IMG/VR virus record: IMGVR_UViG_3300020175_000053
Location: 1-24,042 of that record
Strand: one strand, 5' to 3'
Length of the DNA: 24,042 nucleotides
From: a virus
Shown: piece after piece, positions 3,379 through 20,937 of the stretch
Layout: each line of letters starts with the position of its first letter
Position numbering within the stretch: the first letter of the stretch is position 1
Notes under the pieces: model-generated
Seen by the model: only the letters and a program-made list of their open reading frames with translations
What the model was told of the DNA's origin: nothing
The model's database searches: none
Translations under genes and position numbers: made by a program

Positions 3379-3657
3379 ATGTCTACGACTGAATATGAAA
3401 AGCATAATTTAGAAGCGCACGTTGATCTGTGCGCCGAAAGGTATGAGCAACTGAAAATAGAACTAGGAAATGTACAGGCTGGACAAGCCGCAGTAAATTT
3501 ACGTCTTGATACTCTCGAAGCTATGATATCAGACATTGCCAAATCTTTGGCAGAAAAAGAAAACACAGCATTACGGTCAATAATTAAAATAAGCGGAACT
3601 TTGATACTTACACTAGTAGGAACTTTAGGTGGTGTATTATGGTATTTAATAACGTAG
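3379..3657 (+). CDS. Small coiled-coil protein with C-terminal TM anchor (possible XhlA-like lysis accessory)
   Basis: A 92-aa protein. I chose ATG 3379 because AGGAG (3369-3373) lies 5 nt upstream; the longer in-frame ATG at 3337 has no comparable site. Residues about 1-65 are helical with heptad-like spacing (LRLDTLEAMISDIAKSLAE). Residues about 72-91 form one TM segment (ISGTLILTLVGTLGGVLWYL). This layout, helical N-half plus one C-terminal TM, matches XhlA-type hemolysin/holin-partner proteins. A plain membrane-anchored virion or host-takeover protein is equally possible. No endolysin is visible beside it. Confidence 0.7.
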   Translation: MSTTEYEKHNLEAHVDLCAERYEQLKIELGNVQAGQAAVNLRLDTLEAMISDIAKSLAEKENTALRSIIKISGTLILTLVGTLGGVLWYLIT

Positions 3658-3669
3658 TACTTTGATTAG

Positions 3670-3897
3670 ATGTATAAAGTACAATTAGCTCCCGGGGTTA
3701 ATATTACGGTTAACACCTTAGAGCTCAAAATTCTTAGATATTTAGAAAAGTCAGGAAATTTATCGTATAATAAATTGAATTCTGATGTTAAGTATGCTAT
3801 AAATAAGTTACTATCAAAAGGTTTGGTAATTAAGTCTAAGAAAGGTAATCATGCTTCAATACAAATACACAGAAGAACAATCTTACCAAAGGATTAG
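3670..3897 (+). CDS. Small winged-helix-like protein, 75 aa
   Basis: A 75-aa basic protein. The segment 'NTLELKILRYLEKSGNLSYNKLNSDVKYAINKLLSKGLVIKSKKG' looks like a winged helix-turn-helix: a helix, a second helix, a recognition helix, then a beta hairpin ending in 'GLVIKSKKGN'. It could be a small DNA-binding regulator. No strong ribosome binding site precedes the ATG. Its 3' end overlaps the next gene (start 3851) by 47 nt in another frame, which is unusual for this otherwise tidy layout. One of the two ends may therefore be misjudged. Confidence 0.55.
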   Translation: MYKVQLAPGVNITVNTLELKILRYLEKSGNLSYNKLNSDVKYAINKLLSKGLVIKSKKGNHASIQIHRRTILPKD

Positions 3898-4309
3898 CAA
3901 TTTTTTTAATAAAGAAATTGCACATTTAAAAACACCAATACTTAACAATCGACCTAATTGTGTTACTGTTGGACCTTATCGTGTAATTACAAATGGTAAA
4001 ATTTACGAAGTATGGAAAAGTCGGCAAAAGCTATGTGAGTTTTCTCGACGCAATTGGGGTGTTGGATATGCTTTATGTTTGTATCAACACAAACATCTGC
4101 AGGCACACAAATTTAAAGAAGACAACGATCAGTATGCTAGATTCTTGGAAAAAAAACACAGCTATAATTATCATCTGAGAATTGCCCAAAAACGAAATGA
4201 TGCAGCTAAACAGGATATATTTTGTTGTCGGTTAAGTCGAATTGAATACGAAATCTCTTCATTGGAATCTAAAACAAACAAACTTTTAAAAAGTATTCAA
4301 GTTGGATAA
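3851..4309 (+). CDS. Hypothetical phage protein, 152 aa
   Basis: A 152-aa basic protein rich in K, N, Y and H. The C-terminal half (about residues 85-150) is strongly helical and likely coiled-coil ('DNDQYARFLEKKHSYNYHL', 'LSRIEYEISSLESKTNKLLK'). The N-terminal half contains 'VTVGPYRVITNGKIYEVWK', probably a small beta domain. ATG 3851 has AAAGG 5-6 nt upstream, inside the end of the preceding gene. No family is recognised. It ends just before a late promoter box (4305), which overlaps its last codons. Confidence 0.65.
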   Translation: MLQYKYTEEQSYQRISNFFNKEIAHLKTPILNNRPNCVTVGPYRVITNGKIYEVWKSRQKLCEFSRRNWGVGYALCLYQHKHLQAHKFKEDNDQYARFLEKKHSYNYHLRIAQKRNDAAKQDIFCCRLSRIEYEISSLESKTNKLLKSIQVG

Positions 4310-4312
4310 ATA
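4305..4312 (+). promoter_or_regulatory. T4-type late promoter box (GATAAATA)
   Basis: GATAAATA overlaps the TAA stop of the upstream gene and lies 22 nt before the ATG at 4335. The predicted +1 near 4318 leaves a short leader carrying AAGGATTAGG. Confidence 0.75.
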
Positions 4313-4334
4313 CTCTTATAATAAGGATTAGGTC

Positions 4335-5486
4335 ATGAGATTAGGCGAGATGAACAAAGTTGATACTAAAGCACTAAACGATAGTATGCAAGAGCGTGTT
4401 GGTTGGAGTTTTAGTAATCTTTCAAAGTTAACTTTGGCGCAAGCAAGTGCAATGCTCGAAACAGTTGATAGTAAAATAGCACAAGTTAAAACTACTAGTA
4501 AATTACACGAAAGTGAAAAAAATGCTGCATACAACGGTATGGTACTAGCCAAGCAAGTTCTTGAAAGTTATTTGTCTGAAGCAACCGATACACATTGCTC
4601 AAACGATTGCTGCGGTAGTGATGTAAAAGCAGAAGATTGCACTTGCGGACCAAACTGCAAAGGCTGTAACTGTAACGCAGTAACAGAAGGTCGCATGAGT
4701 GATCAACTAATAGATGATTCAGAAAACATGACCAAAGAAGAATTTGCTAAAAAGTACGGTAAAGAAATGGCAGACGAATACTACGAATCAGTAAACGAAG
4801 CTGAAGAAGTATTGGAATTAGATACAAGTCGTTTAGTACTTGAAGCAGATGCAGCAAAAATGATTGATCGTGTAATAGCCAAAACACTAGAAGAAATCCA
4901 GGGTCTTAGTAATCGTTTCCAAGCTGAAGGTACATTGCATAGAACAATTTTAGCGCAAGGCGGCAAGTTTAATGCTAAATCCATGGCTGAAGTTTTTGAA
5001 AGTATGTGCAACGAGTTAACAGTAGCACACTACGATGCTATTGGCCATCACAATGTTAGCGAAGCAACACCAATGATGGAAGACGAAGTTGGCGAAGCAG
5101 AAGCATTAATGGCAGCACAGGACATGGTTGATCGTATCCAGGGCATGCTAGAAGATGTAGGCGAAATGCTCAACGAAGAACTACCACCGTTAACAGACAG
5201 CTTACGCCGTAGTGCTGGTGCTGATGCAGCAGCTTCATTTAATTCTAGTTCTAGTGAAACACTAAACAGTCTATTAGAAGCTTGCCGTAGTTCGAGAGAA
5301 GCAATGGCAAATAGTGTAGCCCAGTTAAGTGGCGGAGAGCCAACAACAATGGGCGACATTAAAACAGCAGAGCCTGATGCAGAGTCAAATCTAGACGACG
5401 ATGACGAAGTTGACCTAGATGATTTTGAGTCAAGTGATGCAGCAATAGGTGGCGACGAGCCACTAGGCCGTGCTAAGAGAGACTAA
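4335..5486 (+). CDS. Probable virion/assembly protein with a cysteine cluster, 383 aa
   Basis: A 383-aa acidic, mostly helical protein. Residues 1-85 are helical (MRLGEMNKVDTKAL...). Residues 88-113 contain eight cysteines (C88, C92, C93, C102, C104, C108, C111, C113), including the metallothionein-like run CTCGPNCKGCNC. The region around residues 255-335 (AAQDMVDRIQGMLEDVGEML then LPPLTDSLRR) resembles an uncharacterised structural-region family of T4-like cyanophages, recalled and unverified. The last 40 residues are very Asp/Glu-rich, as in scaffold or prohead-core proteins. Its own late promoter box and the downstream coupled gene (TAATG at 5484-5488) support a late, virion-related role. 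The cysteine cluster is not typical of phage structural proteins. Confidence 0.75.
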   Translation: MRLGEMNKVDTKALNDSMQERVGWSFSNLSKLTLAQASAMLETVDSKIAQVKTTSKLHESEKNAAYNGMVLAKQVLESYLSEATDTHCSNDCCGSDVKAEDCTCGPNCKGCNCNAVTEGRMSDQLIDDSENMTKEEFAKKYGKEMADEYYESVNEAEEVLELDTSRLVLEADAAKMIDRVIAKTLEEIQGLSNRFQAEGTLHRTILAQGGKFNAKSMAEVFESMCNELTVAHYDAIGHHNVSEATPMMEDEVGEAEALMAAQDMVDRIQGMLEDVGEMLNEELPPLTDSLRRSAGADAAASFNSSSSETLNSLLEACRSSREAMANSVAQLSGGEPTTMGDIKTAEPDAESNLDDDDEVDLDDFESSDAAIGGDEPLGRAKRD

Positions 5487-12391: not shown

Positions 12392-12480
12392 TGGCATTAC
12401 GTAAGCCACGGGCAACCAAAACTAAAATGAAAGCTGCTGCTAAAAAAGCAACTAAAATTGGCAAAAAGAGAAAAAAATGA
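12391..12480 (+). CDS. 29-aa very basic micro-protein
   Basis: ATG 12391 overlaps the glutaredoxin stop (TAATG) and its own TGA overlaps the next start (ATGA at 12477), so this 29-codon frame is coupled on both sides. It encodes 11 Lys and 3 Arg with Ala/Thr spacers, starting MALRKPRATKTK and ending KIGKKRKK. The composition resembles histone-H1-like or nucleic-acid-binding tails. No acidic residues are present. Double coupling argues for real translation; the function is unknown and binding to DNA or RNA is inferred from charge. Confidence 0.6.
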   Translation: MALRKPRATKTKMKAAAKKATKIGKKRKK

Positions 12481-12788
12481 TCATTGAACAACCTATCAAA
12501 GAAAATACAACAGTAACAATTAAAACCACCAGCGGTGATGAAGTTGTTGCTCGTTATGTTAGCGAAGACAATAATACCATCACTATAACTAAACCATTAG
12601 CACTAGTTGCATCGCAACAAGGCATGGGATTAGCACCGTTTGCTTTTACAGTGCCTCTAGATGGCAAACTTAAAATATATAAAAGTGCTGTGATTTTTAT
12701 GGCAAAAACAGAAGACCAAATGGCAAGTCAATACATGACAAGTACCAGTGGCATTGCAACACCAAACTCATCATCGTTTAAAATTTAA
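12477..12788 (+). CDS. Small beta-rich protein, 103 aa (Sm/SH3-like barrel possible)
   Basis: A 103-aa protein whose first 75 residues alternate in strand-like fashion: 'TTVTIKTTSGDEVVARYVSE', then 'NTITITKPLALV', 'FAFTVPLDGKLKIYKSAVIF'. The order of short strands with a central G-D turn resembles Sm/Hfq- or SH3-like barrels. The C-terminal 25 residues are Ser/Thr-rich and probably flexible. No enzyme motif is visible. It is coupled to the Lys-rich micro-gene upstream. Comparable small proteins occur in T4-like marine phages (recalled). The fold call is tentative. Confidence 0.65.
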   Translation: MIIEQPIKENTTVTIKTTSGDEVVARYVSEDNNTITITKPLALVASQQGMGLAPFAFTVPLDGKLKIYKSAVIFMAKTEDQMASQYMTSTSGIATPNSSSFKI

Positions 12789-12794
12789 AGTATT

Positions 12795-12878
12795 ATGGAA
12801 CATCAAGAACGTTATCACGATTACATTTTACGAAAAACAAGAGAAGATAGAGAAGCCAAAGAAGATGACAAAAAGTAG
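12795..12878 (+). CDS. 27-aa charged micro-protein
   Basis: ATG 12795, 6 nt after the preceding stop, opens 27 codons encoding an alternating Glu/Lys/Arg/Asp helix (MEHQERYHDYILRKTRED...). No clear Shine-Dalgarno is present. Its stop lies inside the first arm of the terminator at 12871. It may be a real last gene of the operon or a chance frame. Confidence 0.4.
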   Translation: MEHQERYHDYILRKTREDREAKEDDKK

Positions 12879-12897
12879 CCCTTAGGGCTACTTTTTT
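12871..12897. terminator. Bidirectional rho-independent terminator
   Basis: AAAAGTAGCCC-TTA-GGGCTACTTTT forms an 11-bp stem with a 3-nt loop and T/A tracts on both sides, so it works on either strand. It separates the + strand nrd operon from the convergent - strand gene ending at 12904. Confidence 0.92.
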
Positions 12898-12903
12898 ATT
12901 TTG

Positions 12904-13542
12904 TTAAGCAGTTGGATACTGTGTCATTATTGTTAATGCAATTAACATGCTGTAGCGGTCCTTAGTTTTGCTTAAATTTCCGCCATCATGCCAAACATCA
13001 TTGTCGTTAACTTGCATCCATCCATCACCTAAATTAGTTGTACTCCTGGCATATTCTTTTTCGTCATTGTATGATCTAAAGAAATAAGTTGCTAGCTCTG
13101 GGTCATCTTGTGCGTTTAAACTAATGCCACCTGTGGCAGCTAGCAGCCTAAAATCAATGTGTCTGCCGCATTCAAAGCTTGGTTTATCTTCTGTAAACTC
13201 TCCATGGAAACTAGTATTTTTAATAAATGCATCCTTGGTCATGCCATAGTTGCCTCTAATGTTTGGGGATGTTTCAAACAAGTAATCAACTAAGTCGGCT
13301 TTGCTTTTTTCGAGATGAAAAAAGCTTTGCATTTCACGTAGCAGTTTGCTTTGTGGGTCTAGTATTTTAAAACGCAGCGGCCATATTTCATAACCAGTTG
13401 TGTTTGTTTCGCTAAACTTTCTCCATTTTTCATTTTTAAGTTCGCTTACTACTTCTTCGTGGCTGTAAGGAAAATTAAATTTTATACGGTAAAGTTGATG
13501 TTCTCGATGTTCAACTTCTAGACTGTAATTTTTATGATTCAT
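12904..13542 (-). CDS. 2OG-Fe(II)-oxygenase-like protein, 212 aa
   Basis: I chose the internal ATG at 13542 (MNHKNYSLEVEHREH); a longer frame to 13620 would run through the divergent gene's start and promoter. The C-terminal half carries the spacing of a 2-oxoglutarate/Fe(II) dioxygenase: H128-x-D130 (GRHIDFR), distal H185 (DVWHDGGN) and R196 (DRYSML) for 2OG. Position H to R is 11 residues and HxD to H is 55, both usual for the fold. The N-terminal 100 residues are not recognised. It is the only - strand gene. It has its own late-type box (13575-13582) and lies back-to-back with three radical SAM genes. The substrate is unknown. Confidence 0.72.
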   Translation of the reverse strand: MNHKNYSLEVEHREHQLYRIKFNFPYSHEEVVSELKNEKWRKFSETNTTGYEIWPLRFKILDPQSKLLREMQSFFHLEKSKADLVDYLFETSPNIRGNYGMTKDAFIKNTSFHGEFTEDKPSFECGRHIDFRLLAATGGISLNAQDDPELATYFFRSYNDEKEYARSTTNLGDGWMQVNDNDVWHDGGNLSKTKDRYSMLIALTIMTQYPTA

Positions 13543-13554
13543 AATAGTGCTTTC

Positions 13555-13562
13555 AATAAATA
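13555..13562 (+). promoter_or_regulatory. T4-type late promoter box (AATAAATA) for the radical SAM operon
   Basis: AATAAATA lies 25 nt before ATG 13588, in the 45-nt gap between divergent genes. A TATAAT (13567-13572) follows immediately. Confidence 0.55.
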
Positions 13563-13574
13563 CTGTTATAATGA

Positions 13575-13582
13575 TATTTATG
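13575..13582 (-). promoter_or_regulatory. T4-type late promoter box (CATAAATA) for the 2OG-oxygenase-like gene
   Basis: Read on the - strand the sequence is CATAAATA, 32 nt before the gene's ATG at 13542. It faces the + strand box only 12 nt away, so the two divergent units could be switched on together as late genes. Confidence 0.5.
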
Positions 13583-13587
13583 AACCA

Positions 13588-14802
13588 ATGAAAAACAATA
13601 CATGCATATTGGCAGAACAAGGGCTACATTTGCACAACAGCGGAAGATGCAACAGTTGTAGCGATAGTATAGCATACTGGACCGATGAACAAAACAATCC
13701 AATGGATCTAACTACACATTCTTTGGAACAAATTTGGAACAGCAAAAGCCGGCAGGATCTTGTTGCAGATCTTCGCAACGGTGTCGATAATCCAAGTTGC
13801 GAAAAGTGTTGGCAAAAAGAACGTGTGGGTATAGAAAGCAAAAGACAGATTAGTAACAGACAATGGCAACTAAGTGATAAACAGACACCGCAATATATTG
13901 ATTTAAAGTGGGGTAATGTTTGTAACTTAAAATGCCGGCACTGTAACCCTTGGACCAGCAGTAAGTGGTTAAAAGAATGGTACGCTGTAGAAAGAGATGG
14001 TGTACAAGATTATAGCGATTATGTTGCAGAATTTCAATCTACACAAAAAAGTTATCACCCAGACAACAAAGAAAACTTTCACAATACATTTAATCAATGG
14101 TTTGCTAACAGCACAAACATAATGCTGTATGGCGGCGAGGGTATGTATGTCAAGGATGTACAGCGTATGTTTAATTATGCGGTAGAAAACGGTAATAGCA
14201 AAAATATCGATGTTTACATCAATACCAATGGTACAATATACAGCGAAGAATGGATTGAGTTACTGGGGAATTTTCGCAGTGTAAGAATGGCATTTAGTAT
14301 TGACGGTGTTGGAGATAGTTTCGATTACATAAGGCACGGTGCCGATTGGAATACAGTTGTAAAAAACTTTAATCGATATAAACAAATAGAAAATATACAG
14401 GTAGATATTGTTGCTACTATTTTTACATTAAATGTTTACAATTGTGTCGATATGCTGTATAATATAAACAAGAGTATGAAAATGCCAATGGTTAATTTTG
14501 TATATGGCCCTGAATGGTGGGATATACGAGTACTACCAACAGATGTAAAACAACAAATATATAGCAAGAATAAACACGACTTAATGGCAAAACAATCTTC
14601 AATGTCGGAACATACGTTTGAAGTGTTACAGGAACAAGTTGACCAAATACAAAAGTTTTTGCTCGATGATGTAGATAATTCGTCAGCTAAGTATAAAGTA
14701 ATGAAGAACTGGGTTAAGTCTATAGATCAAAGTCGCAATGAAAACTTTAAAGATGGTTTTCCAGAATATAATAATTTAATTAAGGTATACAATGACTATT
14801 AA
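13588..14802 (+). CDS. Radical SAM protein 1 (twitch/SPASM-like), 404 aa
   Basis: The radical SAM CxxxCxxC motif is C112-C116-C119 (GNVCNLKCRHC), followed by a GGE motif (LYGGEGMY) and later core strands ('VYINTNGTIY', 'MAFSIDGVGDSFDYIRHG'). N-terminal to it lies an auxiliary cysteine region, C6, C21, C24, C71 and C74 (SGRCNSC ... PSCEKCW), of the twitch/SPASM type that usually binds a second iron-sulfur cluster. It begins at ATG 13588; a longer frame from 13534 would include the promoter. Phage proteins annotated as twitch-domain radical SAM are known but their substrates are not. The last 11 nt overlap the next gene. Confidence 0.88.
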   Translation: MKNNTCILAEQGLHLHNSGRCNSCSDSIAYWTDEQNNPMDLTTHSLEQIWNSKSRQDLVADLRNGVDNPSCEKCWQKERVGIESKRQISNRQWQLSDKQTPQYIDLKWGNVCNLKCRHCNPWTSSKWLKEWYAVERDGVQDYSDYVAEFQSTQKSYHPDNKENFHNTFNQWFANSTNIMLYGGEGMYVKDVQRMFNYAVENGNSKNIDVYINTNGTIYSEEWIELLGNFRSVRMAFSIDGVGDSFDYIRHGADWNTVVKNFNRYKQIENIQVDIVATIFTLNVYNCVDMLYNINKSMKMPMVNFVYGPEWWDIRVLPTDVKQQIYSKNKHDLMAKQSSMSEHTFEVLQEQVDQIQKFLLDDVDNSSAKYKVMKNWVKSIDQSRNENFKDGFPEYNNLIKVYNDY

Positions 14803-16078
14803 ACAAAGACCATTTCCAATAAAAACTGAAACCGCTTGTCAGCTAAAATGGAGTCACAGCACTGTTTTTCTAACTCAAAATAGGAGCAGTAGTTGTCATC
14901 GTGTTCAGGGTAACCAAATCGACGAAAGCTTTGATTTTCACAATACGCCTGACAAAATATCTGACCGAGAGAAAATGCTCAAAGGAGAATGGCCCGGCAG
15001 AGGATGCGAACATTGTAAAGATATTGAGGACGCAGGCGGAACAAGTGACAGAATGCTACACTTAAACTTTCCGGGACTGGGCGCTCCTCCTGAAGTTTTA
15101 GACGGAGATTTAACAGCAACAAAAGTTGCACCACGTTGGTTGGAAATTTATTTTAGTAACTTGTGTAATCTTAGTTGTTTGTACTGTGGTGAGCACTTTA
15201 GTAGTAGTTGGGAAAGTGAAAACAAAAAGTTTGGGCATATCGACGAAGCCATGGGCAGAGAAGCACCAAACACGAACTATACACAAAACTACAAAGACTT
15301 AAACTCAAAAATGTTTGATTGGCTAGATGAAAACGTCCATCACTTATATAACTTAATGATCTTAGGTGGCGAACCTTTTACACAACCGCAAAGTGATCAA
15401 CTGTTAGATTTTCTTGAAGCTAGGCATAATCCTAATTTAACATTAACATTTTTTAGTAACTTGAGTGTAGATCACGAGCGCATGAAAAAACGTTTTAATC
15501 GTATGCAAAAACTCAAAGATAATGGCCATTTAGCCGAAATTCATATTATTGGTAGTATTGATTGTTGGGGTCCCGAAATTGAATATATTCGTTCTGGATT
15601 AGACTTAGAATTGTTTGAGAAAAATTTTGAGTATCTAGTAAATGAAACAGATGTTCGCCTTGGAGTCAATGCTGCTTGGATGAGCCTATCAACATTTACA
15701 ATGCCTGATTTAATTAAAAAAATTAACAAATGGAGTACTCATCAGCGCCCGGTATTTTTCAGTTTAATGCAGGCAGCAGGCCAGAGATATGTGCATCCAG
15801 AAATATTTGGACCTAAAGTACTAGATTGGGGATATAGAGAAGCAGTTGAGTTATTTGAAACACAAGGCAATAATGTCAAAGAAGGTTACAAAACTTATCT
15901 TGAAGGTATTTTGAAAAAAATTGAAAATTCAGAACCAGACATTGAAGCACAACGTCAATTCCACAAATATCTAACAGTACTCGATGATCGCCGAAACACT
16001 GACTATAGAACTCTGTTTCCGGCAGTGTACACAGAAATACAAAAAACTCTGCAAATAAACAGTGAGCCCCATGGATGA
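14792..16078 (+). CDS. Radical SAM protein 2, 428 aa
   Basis: The radical SAM motif is C125-C129-C132 (SNLCNLSCLYC), followed by a GGE motif (MILGGEPFTQ) and the strand/loop 'HIIGSIDCWGPEIEYIRSGL'. Additional cysteines C16, C35, C72 and C75 (RGCEHC) precede the core, paralleling the other two proteins. The C-terminal third is helical. The gene overlaps the first radical SAM gene by 11 nt and the third by 8 nt, so the three form one translationally linked set. The substrate is unknown. Its resemblance to protein 1 suggests ancient duplication with strong divergence. Confidence 0.88.
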   Translation: MTIKQRPFPIKTETACQLKWSHSTVFLTQNRSSSCHRVQGNQIDESFDFHNTPDKISDREKMLKGEWPGRGCEHCKDIEDAGGTSDRMLHLNFPGLGAPPEVLDGDLTATKVAPRWLEIYFSNLCNLSCLYCGEHFSSSWESENKKFGHIDEAMGREAPNTNYTQNYKDLNSKMFDWLDENVHHLYNLMILGGEPFTQPQSDQLLDFLEARHNPNLTLTFFSNLSVDHERMKKRFNRMQKLKDNGHLAEIHIIGSIDCWGPEIEYIRSGLDLELFEKNFEYLVNETDVRLGVNAAWMSLSTFTMPDLIKKINKWSTHQRPVFFSLMQAAGQRYVHPEIFGPKVLDWGYREAVELFETQGNNVKEGYKTYLEGILKKIENSEPDIEAQRQFHKYLTVLDDRRNTDYRTLFPAVYTEIQKTLQINSEPHG

Positions 16079-17102
16079 GTTGCTATCGCATATACCCAAT
16101 GATAAAAAATGGCTTGCTGAAAACTTAATTGTAGACTTTGGTAAGCAAAAAAGTCTCAACTTGTTTTGTAAAGATCCATTTGATGGGTGTAGCATTGATC
16201 GCTTTGGTCAAGTGTTTGTTTGTACGTGCGATGGTAAGTTGCCTATTAGTGTTGGGCATATAACAGACTTTCAGTCATTGGAAGAAATTTGGATAAACGA
16301 CATTGCTAGACAACTACAGCAATCTATACTAGAGAAAAAGTTTACTTATTGCGATGTAAACAACTGCGGGATATTACACAACAATTCTAGTAATGCAGAC
16401 AGCTATTTTAGTAGCTCTCGTCGAAAAGAAATATTTCTAAACATTGATGAAAGCTGCAACTTACAGTGTCCTAGCTGCCGCGATACTATGATTTATATCA
16501 AAAACGGCAAAGAGTATACAGATAAAAAAGCATGGATGACTCATTTTCATGACATGCTAAAACAGTATAATGGCGCATTGGATCTTTATACTAGCGGTAA
16601 CGGTGATCCACTGGCTAGTGAAATATGCCATGAGTTTTTGCTCACATGTGAACTTAAAAACAATCAAAAATTTAATTTTCTCACAAACGGTTTGCTATTA
16701 AGACAGCGTTTCAGCGAGAATCCGTACTTGGTTAATAATACCAATTTGATTATGATAAGCATTGATGCTGGAAGCAAGGAAGTTTATGAGGATGTTAGGC
16801 GTCCTGGTAAATGGGAAAAGTTAATCGACAATCTAGATTGCTTGCACACACTGTCAAAACAAGGCATTGCTGCACAGTTGAATTTTGTAATACAACGTGC
16901 CAATTATCGTGACATTCCAAACTTTATTAATTTAGCAGAGAAATATGAATTTAGGACACACTATGCTTTACTAGAAGATTGGAGAACACTTGACGGCGGT
17001 TTTTACCAAAAAAATGCTGTGCACAACGAAAGTCATCCAGAATACCAAAATTGGTTAAATATTTACGATACATTTAAAGATAAAATTAATTTAGCTAGAT
17101 AA
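16071..17102 (+). CDS. Radical SAM protein 3 with N-terminal SPASM-like domain, 343 aa
   Basis: The radical SAM motif is C129-C133-C136 (DESCNLQCPSC). Residues 33-99 form a clear SPASM-like unit (FCKDPFDGCSIDRFGQVFVC, then SVGHITDFQSLEEIWIND) with C33, C40, C51, C53, C94 and C99. SPASM domains normally follow the radical SAM barrel; here the unit comes first. Instead of GGE the corresponding strand reads 'LYTSGNGDPL'. ATG 16071 overlaps the upstream stop; a GTG at 16062 is an alternative start. Anaerobic-maturase-type enzymes share this architecture, but the target is not shown by the sequence. Confidence 0.87.
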   Translation: MDELLSHIPNDKKWLAENLIVDFGKQKSLNLFCKDPFDGCSIDRFGQVFVCTCDGKLPISVGHITDFQSLEEIWINDIARQLQQSILEKKFTYCDVNNCGILHNNSSNADSYFSSSRRKEIFLNIDESCNLQCPSCRDTMIYIKNGKEYTDKKAWMTHFHDMLKQYNGALDLYTSGNGDPLASEICHEFLLTCELKNNQKFNFLTNGLLLRQRFSENPYLVNNTNLIMISIDAGSKEVYEDVRRPGKWEKLIDNLDCLHTLSKQGIAAQLNFVIQRANYRDIPNFINLAEKYEFRTHYALLEDWRTLDGGFYQKNAVHNESHPEYQNWLNIYDTFKDKINLAR

Positions 17103-17116
17103 CAAAGGATTTGCAC

Positions 17117-17389
17117 ATGGATATACTATCAAGATTATTTGACGATACATTATGGATTTACACAGCAATACTAGGCTCACTATTTGGTGCTGCATTCTTG
17201 GCATATGTAAGTACAACTCGCTTAGGTTTATGGGCTTATGCAAAAGTAGATAATACAGTAGATTTTTTAGTCGAACGTTGGGGATGGACTTGGTTACAGC
17301 AACCAGAAGATGCTTGGCGTAAAAAATATCCAAAAATTACTGATAAGATAGACAGTATTGAAGCAAGATTAAAAGAATTGGAAAAGTAA
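17117..17389 (+). CDS. Small membrane protein with C-terminal coiled coil, 90 aa
   Basis: A 90-aa protein. ATG 17117 follows AAAGGA by 7 nt; an in-frame TTG at 17111 is less likely. Residues about 10-32 are one TM segment (DTLWIYTAILGSLFGAAFLA). A W-rich amphipathic part follows, and the C-terminus (TDKIDSIEARLKELEK) is coiled-coil. It follows the third radical SAM gene by 14 nt and so is probably in the same operon. Its role is unknown; a membrane anchor or lysis accessory is possible. Confidence 0.7.
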   Translation: MDILSRLFDDTLWIYTAILGSLFGAAFLAYVSTTRLGLWAYAKVDNTVDFLVERWGWTWLQQPEDAWRKKYPKITDKIDSIEARLKELEK

Positions 17390-17390
17390 C

Positions 17391-17432
17391 ATGTCAGAAA
17401 TAGAAAAAATTGCTGTATTAGGCTACGACTAA
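17391..17432 (+). CDS. Possible 13-aa peptide ORF or gene remnant
   Basis: ATG 17391 comes 1 nt after the previous stop and opens 13 codons: MSEIEKIAVLGYD, then TAA. It could be a real leader or substrate peptide or the 5' stump of a deleted gene; the following non-coding stretch would fit a deletion. There is no direct evidence of translation beyond its tight spacing. Confidence 0.2.
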   Translation: MSEIEKIAVLGYD

Positions 17433-17622
17433 AGTACCTTAAATTGGCGTAAAAAGAAAAGCTTAAAAAACAGTATTGTAAGTTACTGTTTTTAAAAGAA
17501 AAAAATACCATAATTCTTAGTTAAATTCAAAATATTGGTTAAATTAACGATATAGTATCTTTACCAGCAAAAACTATTAAATATGCCTAAATGACGATTT
17601 AAGAGGCGTTTATGAATTCTGG
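17433..17622. other. Non-coding stretch before the tmRNA
   Basis: About 190 nt without a credible gene on either strand. It holds the terminator at 17465-17494 and two GTTAAATT repeats (17518-17525 and 17538-17545), the second within the near-palindrome GTTAA-A-TTAAC. No tRNA is seen here. Confidence 0.6.
17465..17494 (+). terminator. Rho-independent terminator of the radical SAM operon
   Basis: AAAAACAGTA and TACTGTTTTT pair as a 10-bp stem around an 8-nt loop with a T-tract. It ends the 13588-17432 transcription unit and isolates the tmRNA promoter. Confidence 0.8.
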
Positions 17623-17653
17623 TTGACATTATTAAGAAACTGTTATATAAATA
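17623..17653 (+). promoter_or_regulatory. Dual sigma70-type and T4-late-type promoter of the tmRNA
   Basis: A perfect -35 TTGACA (17623-17628) is followed by exactly 17 nt and TATAAA (17646-17651). The same bases extend to TATAAATA (17646-17653), the full T4 late consensus and the only perfect copy in the window. Both readings predict +1 near 17659, just before the first tmRNA hairpin. Confidence 0.75.
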
Positions 17654-17720
17654 TACTTGTAACGTTGAAGCAACGTAGACACATTCTGGACCTGGGGGCG
17701 GTACCCAGCAGCTCCACCAC

Positions 17721-17777
17721 AGATACACTACACCTCTGGGCAAACCCGGGGGGAACCTTGCAAGTTGTAGTGTATCT
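17721..17777 (+). repeat. Inverted repeat closing the tmRNA intervening segment
   Basis: AGATACACTACA (17721-17732) and TGTAGTGTATCT (17766-17777) are perfect 12-bp complements directly after the encoded CCA and just before the coding piece. The segment should be excised when the two tmRNA pieces mature. Confidence 0.9.
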
Positions 17778-17866
17778 TTGATGGGGCTGAAATAGGATCG
17801 ACAGGTGTGAAAGTGAAGTGGAGTTACCGGGATGTAAGCGCCGTACCGCGAACACAATTTCTAAAT

Positions 17867-17908
17867 GCAAACGCAAATAGAGCGCCAGAAATGGCATTAG
17901 CAGCCTAA
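17867..17908 (+). other. tmRNA proteolysis-tag reading frame
   Basis: Thirteen codons from GCA 17867 plus TAA encode ANANRAPEMALAA. With the alanine carried by the tmRNA itself the tag is A-ANANRAPEMALAA. The LAA terminus matches the degron of known SsrA tags such as AANDENYALAA of E. coli. Confidence 0.88.
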
Positions 17909-18011
17909 GGGTATGTGGGGGTTGGCAACTTACCTAGCAACAGAAAAGTTTGCACACACATTATAAAATACCCAACACATTTTGACTTTTAGAGCACGGA
18001 AGCCAATATAA

Positions 18012-18983
18012 ATGCAAGTAAATGTACTAACAGATCCAGAAATCGGGGGAACCTTTTTTTCGTGGAGTTTGTACTATCTAACAGGTCATAGTGATTATTA
18101 TCACACTCGTTCTGGAAGTATTAAACTGCTACCAAGTAATCCGTTGACTAAATTAAATAATGCACATGCATTTGAACCAAATCGCTATAACACGCCTGAA
18201 CAAGTTCGCAATATCACAATACCTCCAAGCCAAACTCGGCTAGATGTAATTTATCACCATACTGCAGCAACAACTGAGTTTACTTCTGATCAGATTCGAG
18301 ATACTGTTGATCATCTCATGTCAATGACAGATAAGAATATTATTATCACTAATAAAAATATAAGATTTTTTAGATTAACACAAGCTAGTAGGTCACAAGA
18401 CAAAACTTTTGACAAAGAAATTGGCAAAGAATTTATTCAACGTTGGTTTGATAAAAGTTATAAACAATGGAGCCAGGCTGCAGATATGTCCGACAGTTGG
18501 AATCTTCGAGAGTTTCTAGCACTAAATCTACAACCAGACACATCATTTGAAAGAATCACAGATTATATAACATCGTATGATAATACAGTGTACTACATTG
18601 ATATGAATCATGCATGGCATGCACTAGACGATGTTATGCATGACATAATTCCGTGGATGGGCTGGAAAGTTGACAATGAACGGTTTAACAAATGGTTAAA
18701 TGTGTACTATACGTGGCGAAATACGACTATGCAAAGATATAAGTTTCAATGGTACTTTGATGAAATAATCGAGGCAATACTTGAAAATAATTATATAAAT
18801 TTAAAACGTTTTGACTTAGACGTTGTACAGGAAAGTGTTATACTACACGAGCTGATATATAAACATAATTTGAATTTAGCAATGCATGGATTAGAACAAT
18901 TTGATAATACCCAGCAGTTGCATAGTCTATTAGAAGCCAATATTCATCCCTTGCCAATGGAAAAAATGAGAGTCAAAATATGA
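18012..18983 (+). CDS. Hypothetical protein, 323 aa, heading the Kdo operon
   Basis: A 323-aa soluble protein. It opens 'MQVNVLTDPEIGGTFFSWSL', a strand followed by a GG-T loop and a helix, which loosely recalls the phosphate-binding start of sulfotransferase-like P-loop folds. I cannot confirm this, and no second sulfotransferase motif is obvious. The rest is W/Y/H-rich and helical ('HAWHALDDVMHDIIPWMGW'). There is no TM segment. The start is preceded by CGGAAG. Its TGA overlaps the kdsA ATG (18980), so it is translationally coupled to Kdo synthesis and may act on the same sugar or surface structure. Confidence 0.65.
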   Translation: MQVNVLTDPEIGGTFFSWSLYYLTGHSDYYHTRSGSIKLLPSNPLTKLNNAHAFEPNRYNTPEQVRNITIPPSQTRLDVIYHHTAATTEFTSDQIRDTVDHLMSMTDKNIIITNKNIRFFRLTQASRSQDKTFDKEIGKEFIQRWFDKSYKQWSQAADMSDSWNLREFLALNLQPDTSFERITDYITSYDNTVYYIDMNHAWHALDDVMHDIIPWMGWKVDNERFNKWLNVYYTWRNTTMQRYKFQWYFDEIIEAILENNYINLKRFDLDVVQESVILHELIYKHNLNLAMHGLEQFDNTQQLHSLLEANIHPLPMEKMRVKI

Positions 18984-19768
18984 GAATTATTGCAGGACCT
19001 TGCCAACACGAATCATATGCACAAAGTTTAGAAATTGCAACAGAATGTAAACGTGTGTGCGACAAGTATGGCATCGAATACTACTTTAAAGCTAGCTACG
19101 ACAAAGCAAATCGTACAAGTGCTAACAGCAAACGTGGCCAAGGTATAGAATCAACACTTGCTGACTTTCTTGCATTAAAAGTAACACTAGGTGTAAAAAC
19201 ATTAACTGATGTACATGATGCTGTGCAAGTTAAACGTATTGAACAGCAATTTAAAGATGCAGTTGATGTTTATCAAATTCCTGCGTTTTTATGCAGACAA
19301 ACGGATCTTATCCAGGCAGCATGTGCTACAGATAAGATTGTAAATATTAAAAAAGGACAATTCCTAGCACCATGGGATGTCAAGGGCATTCTAAGTAAAA
19401 CCGAAGGCGATCGAGAAGTTTGGATAACAGAGAGAGGTACAAGTTTTGGCTATAATACCTTGGTTGTCGATTTCACTGGCATTCAGTACATGCTTGACAA
19501 TTATGACAATGTTGTGTTTGATGTCACTCACGCAGTACAAAAGCCAGGAGGACAAGGTGATAGCAGTGGGGGGAATAGGGATTATGTTCCAGGTCTTTGC
19601 AGGGCTGCTTCTGCTTTGGGTGTTTCTAACTTTTTCTTAGAGGTACACAAAGATCCAGACAATGCGCCTAGTGACGGTCCTAATATGCTACGATTAGAAG
19701 ATTTTGAGGATACAGTTAAACAAATCAAAGTCGTAAGTACTGCAGCAAATGGGTGGCACTGGCTATGA
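18980..19768 (+). CDS. kdsA: 3-deoxy-8-phosphooctulonate synthase (Kdo-8-P synthase), metal-dependent type
   Basis: A 262-aa enzyme joining phosphoenolpyruvate and arabinose 5-phosphate to make Kdo-8-phosphate. Family motifs run in order: AGPC (5-8), FKASYDKANRTS (36-47), TDVH (76-79), QIPAFLCRQTDL (99-110), NIKKGQF (122-128), ERGTSFGYN (151-159), DVTHAVQKPG (181-190) and FLEVHKDPDNAPSDGPN (219-235). C8, H184, E221 and D232 match the four metal ligands of the Aquifex enzyme, so this is the metal-dependent form, not the Asn-type of E. coli. It overlaps genes on both sides as ATGA. Confidence 0.95.
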   Translation: MRIIAGPCQHESYAQSLEIATECKRVCDKYGIEYYFKASYDKANRTSANSKRGQGIESTLADFLALKVTLGVKTLTDVHDAVQVKRIEQQFKDAVDVYQIPAFLCRQTDLIQAACATDKIVNIKKGQFLAPWDVKGILSKTEGDREVWITERGTSFGYNTLVVDFTGIQYMLDNYDNVVFDVTHAVQKPGGQGDSSGGNRDYVPGLCRAASALGVSNFFLEVHKDPDNAPSDGPNMLRLEDFEDTVKQIKVVSTAANGWHWL

Positions 19769-19926
19769 AAAAGAAAACGTGTGACGCATTTTTTTGTAAC
19801 AAGCAGACACCAAAAAAATTCCGTTACTGCTACGACTGTGCTAGAAATAAAGGATTAGTAGGCAGCAAAAATAATTGGGGAATGTGGGCAATATTAATAG
19901 TAATTGCATTGGTGGTATTTGGATGA
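19765..19926 (+). CDS. 53-aa zinc-ribbon plus TM micro-protein
   Basis: ATG 19765 overlaps the kdsA stop (ATGA) and its TGA (19924-19926) overlaps the kdsB ATG (19923), so it is coupled on both sides. Residues 6-25 carry two cysteine pairs (CDAFFC and CYDC), a likely zinc knuckle. Residues about 40-53 form a short TM helix (MWAILIVIALVVFG). The N-terminus is basic. It might tether the Kdo enzymes or the product pathway to the membrane; this is inference. No family name is known to me. Confidence 0.7.
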   Translation: MKKKTCDAFFCNKQTPKKFRYCYDCARNKGLVGSKNNWGMWAILIVIALVVFG

Positions 19927-20597
19927 AAACAGCAATATTAATTCCAGCAAGATACGGCAGCACACGCTTCCCCGGAAAGCCGTTGGCACTGTTAGATGGC
20001 ATTCCTATGATAAAGCGTGTGTATGACGCTTGTACAGCGTCTAAGATACCAACATATGTTCTCACAGACGACATGCGTATATACGAACTGTTTGGTCCTA
20101 ACAAGTGCTGGATTGAACAAATAGATTATGCTAACGGTACAGAACGGTGTGCTGGCGCAGTCAAGAACGATTTCTTTAAACAGTATGATCAGTTTATTAA
20201 TGTACAAGGCGATATGCCAGATGTAACAGTTGATATAATTCACAAGTGTATAGTTAGTCTTAATCAATACGAAGTAAGTACAGTGTACACCGAAATGACA
20301 AAAGAACTACAGAATGATCCTAACTCAGTTAAACTCATACGTTCAGATTGTAATGCTTTATGGTTTGGTAGAGGCATGACCGGATACGGCGATTGGCACT
20401 TAGGAGTATATGGGTATAGACGCAATGCATTATCTTTGTATAGCAACTTAGAAGTTACTCAAGAAGAACAAGTCGAACAACTTGAGCAACTACGTTGGTT
20501 AAAAAACGGTTGGAAAATCGGCGCACAGAGTGTATACTTTAATGGAGTAGAGATTAATACACCAGAAGATATGGAGAAATGGAATGATTGCAGGTAA
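19923..20597 (+). CDS. kdsB: 3-deoxy-manno-octulosonate cytidylyltransferase (CMP-Kdo synthetase)
   Basis: A 224-aa enzyme, slightly shorter than the usual roughly 245-250 aa, making CMP-Kdo from CTP and Kdo. Motifs are PARYGSTRFPGKPL (8-21) for CTP, NGTERCAGA (71-79), NVQGDMP (93-99) with metal-binding D97, 'WHLGVYGYRRNAL', and the C-terminal 'VEINTPEDMEKW'. The usual NVQGDEP has Met for Glu. I chose ATG 19923; a longer frame from 19875 would overlap the micro-gene. It feeds Kdo into lipopolysaccharide or capsule. The phosphatase KdsC that acts between KdsA and KdsB is not in the window. Confidence 0.93.
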   Translation: MKTAILIPARYGSTRFPGKPLALLDGIPMIKRVYDACTASKIPTYVLTDDMRIYELFGPNKCWIEQIDYANGTERCAGAVKNDFFKQYDQFINVQGDMPDVTVDIIHKCIVSLNQYEVSTVYTEMTKELQNDPNSVKLIRSDCNALWFGRGMTGYGDWHLGVYGYRRNALSLYSNLEVTQEEQVEQLEQLRWLKNGWKIGAQSVYFNGVEINTPEDMEKWNDCR

Positions 20598-20937
20598 AGT
20601 TTGGGGCAATACAGAACTAGTAGAAGCCAATGGAGCCTTAGAGTTTCATCGTATTGAAATGAATAAAGGTGGCGTATGCTCTAAACATCTCCACGAGTTT
20701 AAATGGAATGGGTTTTATGTTGAGTCAGGTCGCATGCTTATTCGTGTATGGCAGAAAGATTATGATTTAGTTGATGAGACTATTCTTGATCCTGGGATGT
20801 ATACAAAAGTAAAACCTGGTGTATATCATCAGTTTGAATGTCTTGATGATGGTGTTGCCTTTGAACTGTACTGGGCTGAGTTTAATCATAATGATATTAA
20901 ACGAGAGACTGTAGGTCATGCAGCAGGCACACTATGA
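20584..20937 (+). CDS. Cupin-domain protein, 117 aa
   Basis: A single-domain cupin. The first motif is 'GGVCSKHLHEFKWNGFYVES' with H-x-H and a later G. The second is 'PGMYTKVKPGVYHQFECLDD', with the PG and H of cupin motif 2. Small cupins of this kind include sugar-phosphate isomerase-like and sugar-nucleotide-modifying proteins. Given its 14-nt overlap with kdsB it may handle a sugar precursor. The specific reaction cannot be read from the sequence. Confidence 0.85.
   Translation: MIAGKVWGNTELVEANGALEFHRIEMNKGGVCSKHLHEFKWNGFYVESGRMLIRVWQKDYDLVDETILDPGMYTKVKPGVYHQFECLDDGVAFELYWAEFNHNDIKRETVGHAAGTL

Follow-up and report, generated by a model that had tools for sequence, protein, structure and literature searches.

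What do three radical S-adenosylmethionine (SAM) enzymes and a putative oxygenase, encoded back to back in the DNA of a marine phage, act upon? The locus that raises this question lies in IMGVR_UViG_3300020175_000053, a whole IMG/VR virus record of 24,042 bases (hereafter the window) whose gene set is T4-like (nrdA, nrdB, nrdC, exonuclease and tail-spike PHROGs), where ox on the minus strand and r1, r2 and r3 on the plus strand occupy positions 12904-17102. We propose that the cluster carries out late-expressed tailoring of a sugar in a glycan of the virion or the host surface, a reading to which we give about an even chance. An earlier note on this DNA had described three overlapping radical SAM genes facing an oxygenase-like gene, with late-type boxes on both strands 12 nucleotides (nt) apart, and all of these elements are present:

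12904..13542, minus strand: ox, putative 2-oxoglutarate (2OG)-Fe(II) oxygenase, 212 amino acids (aa), with the motif H128xD130...H185...R196
13555..13562, plus strand: T4-type late promoter box AATAAATA, for r1; A/G/TATAAATA forms kept in L004, L005, L015 and L020
13575..13582, minus strand: T4-type late promoter box CATAAATA, for ox (TATTTATG on the plus strand); kept in L004, L005 and L015
13588..14802, plus strand: r1, N-terminal-twitch radical SAM enzyme, 404 aa, assigned by NF033640 and its cysteines; the open reading frame (ORF) opens at 13534
14792..16078, plus strand: r2, N-terminal-twitch radical SAM enzyme, 428 aa, assigned by NF033640, its cysteines and an AlphaFold model
16071..17102, plus strand: r3, radical SAM enzyme with N-terminal SPASM-type cysteines, assigned by Pfam SPASM and Radical_SAM; alternative GTG start at 16062

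We place the start of r1 at 13588 rather than 13534 because of its homologues and the position of the box, so that r1 and ox do not overlap; r3 most likely starts at the ATG at 16071. The overlaps are 11 nt between r1 and r2 and 8 nt between r2 and r3. Late-type boxes (GATAAATA/TATAAATA) precede numerous genes of the window, TATAAATA precedes ox in L099, L101 and L103, and late boxes are conserved in both of the ox-bearing phage clades described below.

The enzyme class of r1 and r2 is clear. Both pass the curated cutoff (170 bits) of the NCBIfam model NF033640 (N_Twi_rSAM), with 289.2 and 223.9 bits and nearly the full profile covered, and share with that family an N-terminal twitch domain followed by the radical SAM core. 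r3 falls under the cutoff (36.9 bits, the match confined to the core) and, judged by its sequence, is a relative of these proteins with the same layout. Pfam Radical_SAM (PF04055) matches r1, r2 and r3 with E values of 3e-12, 2e-5 and 3e-6, respectively, those of r2 and r3 being slightly under cutoff, and Pfam SPASM matches the N-terminus of r1 (residues 24-93, E=0.0024) and of r3 (residues 32-98, E=0.0002, above cutoff). The reversed domain order that the note had read from the window, a SPASM/twitch-like region ahead of CxxxCxxC, is thus confirmed by NF033640 for r1 and r2 and by the N-terminal SPASM match for r3. The auxiliary cysteines are conserved as well. In r1 the cluster cysteines C6, C24, C71 and C74 and the core C112xxxC116xxC119 are invariant, the four-cysteine set being kept in 27 r1-type N-termini; in r2 the N-terminal C16, C35, C72 and C75 together with C125, C129 and C132 are invariant across 65 relatives; and in r3 five N-terminal and three core cysteines are invariant across 10 homologues. 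Against the model for viperin-type antiviral radical SAM enzymes (NF038283), r2 scores 16.9 bits, the cutoff being 180.

The origin of the N-terminal domain offers the first pointer to a substrate. A profile of the 27 r1-type N-terminal domains gave one meaningful match in the PDB, the C-terminal twitch domain of BtrN (E=7.6e-6), in an alignment that matches all four cluster cysteines (C-x17-C and C-x2-C). BtrN is an aminocyclitol dehydrogenase of butirosin biosynthesis, in whose twitch domain four cysteines ligate one [4Fe-4S] cluster with a possible role in oxidation of the substrate radical (PMC6231123). The twitch follows the radical SAM core in BtrN, whereas it precedes the core in r1 and r2; given the homology, a C-terminal domain has become an N-terminal one, and its role is likely to be electron-accepting here too. 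On this basis r1, r2 and r3 would each make a 5'-deoxyadenosyl radical from SAM, which would abstract a hydrogen atom from an unreactive sugar carbon; the auxiliary [4Fe-4S] cluster predicted in the twitch domain could then accept an electron, as proposed for BtrN, and a dehydrogenated, epimerised or deoxygenated sugar would result. ox would contribute a separate oxidative step, e.g., hydroxylation, and the target glycan would be placed on the virion, or on the host surface during infection.

Structure prediction, which the note had suggested for all three proteins and which was done for r2, returned a confident AlphaFold model (predicted local distance difference test score, pLDDT, 94; predicted template modelling score, pTM, 0.91) with radical SAM barrel matches in the PDB, where SkfB, BlsE, DesII, anSME and viperin are tied at Z of about 12-14. 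The presence of SkfB (Z 13.7) and anSME (Z 12.4) among them brings in another explanation, namely that the target is a polypeptide, such as a structural protein of the phage, a protein of the ribosome or a precursor like those of ribosomally synthesised and post-translationally modified peptides (RiPPs), whose residues the radical SAM enzymes would crosslink, epimerise or oxidise and in which ox would hydroxylate a side chain. Most characterised SPASM/twitch radical SAM enzymes do work on peptides, and the RiPP maturases SkfB, SuiB and CteB as well as anSME share with the phage enzymes the radical SAM barrel (Z 11-14) and an auxiliary cluster domain, but in the phage enzymes the domain order is reversed, Pfam identifies no RiPP recognition element (RRE) domain and no precursor peptide was found. 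A conserved short precursor beside its maturase, as in RiPP systems, is absent from the locus, although a remote one is possible. Nor did the peptides that the note had nominated as substrates hold up: at the 13-aa frame at 17391 L004 and L005 differ in sequence, and the 90-aa membrane protein is fast-evolving (dN/dS, the ratio of nonsynonymous to synonymous substitution rates, 0.37-0.6) and no copy of it turned up next to the cluster in the second ox clade (L099, L101-L103), so that it is probably a passenger:

17117..17389, plus strand: tm90, 90-aa predicted membrane protein, fast-evolving by dN/dS and without a match in L099 and L101-L103

To a third nominee, the lysine-rich 29-aa frame near 12796, L016 offers a similar reading frame, yet we found no link to the cluster. 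For the peptide explanation speaks an SbmA/BacA-type peptide transporter (Pfam 1e-138), encoded shortly after tm90 in the close relative L016 (13917-14942), as does the family resemblance of ox discussed next; the neighbours in relatives, on the other hand, are of sugar type, unlike the peptidase and exporter genes of RiPP loci. Overall we consider a protein or peptide target unlikely.

ox is likely a 2OG-type oxygenase, as its sequence motif indicates and as the note had surmised: H128, D130, H185 and R196 are invariant in 8 homologues, and the motif is partly retained across a broader set of 11 sequences. ox itself has no family match above cutoff in Pfam, but shares HxD...H...R with the 2OG superfamily of PF13640, to which its homologue in L099 aligns below cutoff (residues 115-198, E=0.004, 18.5 bits versus 27). 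PF13640 is a 2OG family of prolyl-4-hydroxylase type, which would suit a peptide substrate. A profile of ox also picks up a 2OG-like protein at another r2 locus (E=1.2e-6). On the double-stranded beta-helix fold typical of that superfamily structural comparison added little, an AlphaFold model built from only four close sequences reaching a pLDDT of 37 and PDB profile searches with ox, alone or pooled with more distant 2OG-like proteins, returning noise only.

How firmly do these genes belong together? Besides the window's own copy, ox is present in nine viral contigs that form two clades, one of near relatives of the window (75-100% identity) and a second, more distant one at 32-36% identity. 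Members of the second clade have ox and r3 as overlapping genes of a single operon, with r2 running convergently towards r3, r1 close by and extra N-terminal-twitch (N-twitch) genes; despite this different gene order, every ox found is accompanied by r1, r2 and r3 where the contig extends far enough. Seen from r2, the picture differs: in a table of 89 loci, of which a few entries are one contig entered twice, r2 stands alone at 61, with r3 at 12 and with r1 at 8. The linkage is therefore one-sided, and the co-occurrence of oxygenase and radical SAM genes raised in the note stands in that every ox sits with r1, r2 and r3, but fails in that most r2 loci lack ox. Purifying selection on all four genes is strong (dN/dS against L004 of 0.02 for ox, 0.08 for r1, 0.07 for r2 and 0.04 for r3; 0.11 for r1 against L005). 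Relatives of r2 occur in at least 540 viral contigs, and a short-peptide-pattern scan, which distant relatives could escape, found neither r2 relatives nor ox in any of 84,980 bacterial and archaeal genomes. Relatives are present in the isolated phages KVP40, phi-pp2 and K566, and tblastn searches against isolated phages gave matches limited to K566/K567, to one single-cell marine virus, or none. A 292-aa neighbour of ox in the second clade was considered as a shared partner and rejected, hhalign aligning it to array family F18 with a probability of only 8.6%. One phage of that clade also has an unusually long ORF of 800 aa containing an N-twitch radical SAM domain (L102, 10287-12689).

The genes around the relatives carry the argument for sugars. 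Related phages have between 3 and 14 N-twitch genes per record, in arrays that also encode an amidinotransferase closest, among PDB entries, to the inosamine-phosphate amidinotransferase of the streptomycin pathway (2.6e-38), a sugar-nucleotide epimerase (2e-37) with a cytidylyltransferase, an FkbM methyltransferase (6e-10) and a carbamoyltransferase (PF16861, 5e-51). Vibrio phage K566 (255 kb) has just two GT8 glycosyltransferase genes, and both lie interspersed among its N-twitch radical SAM genes; in KVP40, gene 0274, annotated as a glycosyltransferase through PF00534, stands two positions from the N-twitch-like 0272. Plasmid loci with related radical SAM genes contain glycosyltransferases in all four cases; at one of them, from Methylomagnum, a radical SAM gene above the NF033640 cutoff is surrounded by five glycosyltransferases, accompanied by an ATP-binding cassette (ABC) exporter and a phytanoyl-CoA-dioxygenase-family (2OG-type) gene. 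The arrays of L080, L092, L093 and L097 include a SAM synthetase and/or a nucleoside phosphorylase-family (PNP_UDP_1) gene (in L097, for example, at 12411-12986 and 16924-18018), of which the latter may clear 5'-deoxyadenosine/methylthioadenosine (MTA); the pair fits high SAM use. It is this combination of the BtrN twitch match, the sugar-type enzymes of the arrays, the glycosyltransferase genes of K566 and KVP40, the plasmid loci and the SAM-supply genes that leads us to the sugar reading.

Several points weigh against it. The modelled similarity of the r2 core fold does not choose a substrate. The window itself yielded no identified glycosyltransferase, and kdsA and kdsB, 2-3 kb downstream in the window, are unmatched in the L005 contig. 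Pfam glycosyltransferase scans of eight large records gave few matches, and hence the glycan link relies on K566, KVP40, the accessory enzymes and the plasmid loci. Array families F1, F8 and F10, which we read as glycosyltransferases, are without a significant Pfam or PDB match, F10 reaching only E=0.016 against glycogenin. The plasmid contexts were assessed without a random-gene control, and marine T4-like phages keep glycan genes in hypervariable regions, so that proximity may partly be shared location.

Some of the same neighbours would also suit a hypermodification of phage DNA or of a nucleotide. Enzymes of the 2OG type (TET-type), carbamoyltransferases, glycosyltransferases and radical SAM genes occur in phage DNA-modification loci, and the r2 core resembles the nucleotide-acting BlsE and viperin. 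However, the large phage genomes tested have at most one thymidylate-synthase-family gene each (none in a 344-kb record) and no additional deoxynucleoside monophosphate (dNMP) hydroxymethylase copy, and the same enzyme type is found in bacterial polysaccharide loci. A TET/JBP search gave no match either, but its control was silent too and the window contig is a fragment. Loci for cytosine modification in phages are described elsewhere (PMC8670742); for the present cluster we regard such a role as improbable.

Metal-cluster genes point in a different direction. An ErpA-type Fe-S carrier and ferritin are encoded near r2 in some phages, and among PDB entries the r3 profile finds MoaA (6.5e-10) and the core of NifB (1e-5), as might be expected if the cluster made a small diffusible cofactor or metabolite, or served general host redox or Fe-S metabolism, with no macromolecular target. 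Yet the carrier and ferritin genes may merely supply clusters, and 3 to 14 diverged paralogues per record are many for a single cofactor, which makes this explanation very improbable in our view. In marine phages TctA/TctC tricarboxylate-transporter-like genes, judged by eye, lie near r2 (L035-L037 and L053-L055, at the locus starts).

How much of this is new? The note had proposed an undescribed system, and that claim needs trimming: the architecture is already NF033640, and pelagimyophages and other marine T4-like phages are published as carrying multiple radical SAM genes in variable regions, as many as 12 in a single genome (PMC7029224, PMC5332604). What stands is that the available portions of those reports give neither architecture, partner oxygenase, substrate nor mechanism for these cassettes. 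The name of NF033640 is likewise silent on substrate and reaction, the fixed partnership with ox lies outside the family definition, and our literature search found no study on N-twitch radical SAM enzymes of phages. The novelty lies in recognising the moved domain as BtrN-type, in the four-gene partnership conserved in two distant phage clades and in a substrate class drawn from context. Marine-phage radical SAM genes, earlier listed as auxiliary genes without known function, are now joined with an oxygenase in one partnership; sugars are a testable substrate class, and the relatives in isolated phages allow a test at the bench. If sugar tailoring is the true role, radical chemistry joins the means by which phages disguise their virions or remodel host surfaces. 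A wider possibility, which we hold tentatively and with less confidence than the reading for this cluster, is that T4-type phages encode a large uncharacterised sugar-editing chemistry, in which permuted-twitch radical SAM enzymes, as many as 14 in an array, together with phage SAM synthetase, Fe-S carrier, glycosyltransferases and dedicated 2OG oxygenases, would build unusual sugars of the virion or host surface.

Downstream of the cluster the window holds four further features:

17625-17999: permuted transfer-messenger RNA (tmRNA) directly after the cluster, tag ANANRAPEMALAA (Rfam alphaproteobacterial model, 117 bits)
18980-19768: kdsA-type gene (335.7 bits, cutoff 242)
19875-20597: kdsB-like gene
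20584-20937: WbuC-like cupin gene, after kdsA/kdsB

The absence of a match in L005 led us to reject the 3-deoxy-D-manno-octulosonic acid (Kdo) genes kdsA and kdsB as obligate partners. L016 has a 400-aa ORF (3385-4587), absent from the window, that by eye has a lipoprotein-like start and resembles subtilisin-type proteases. Because the tmRNA is of alphaproteobacterial type, an alphaproteobacterial host is likely.

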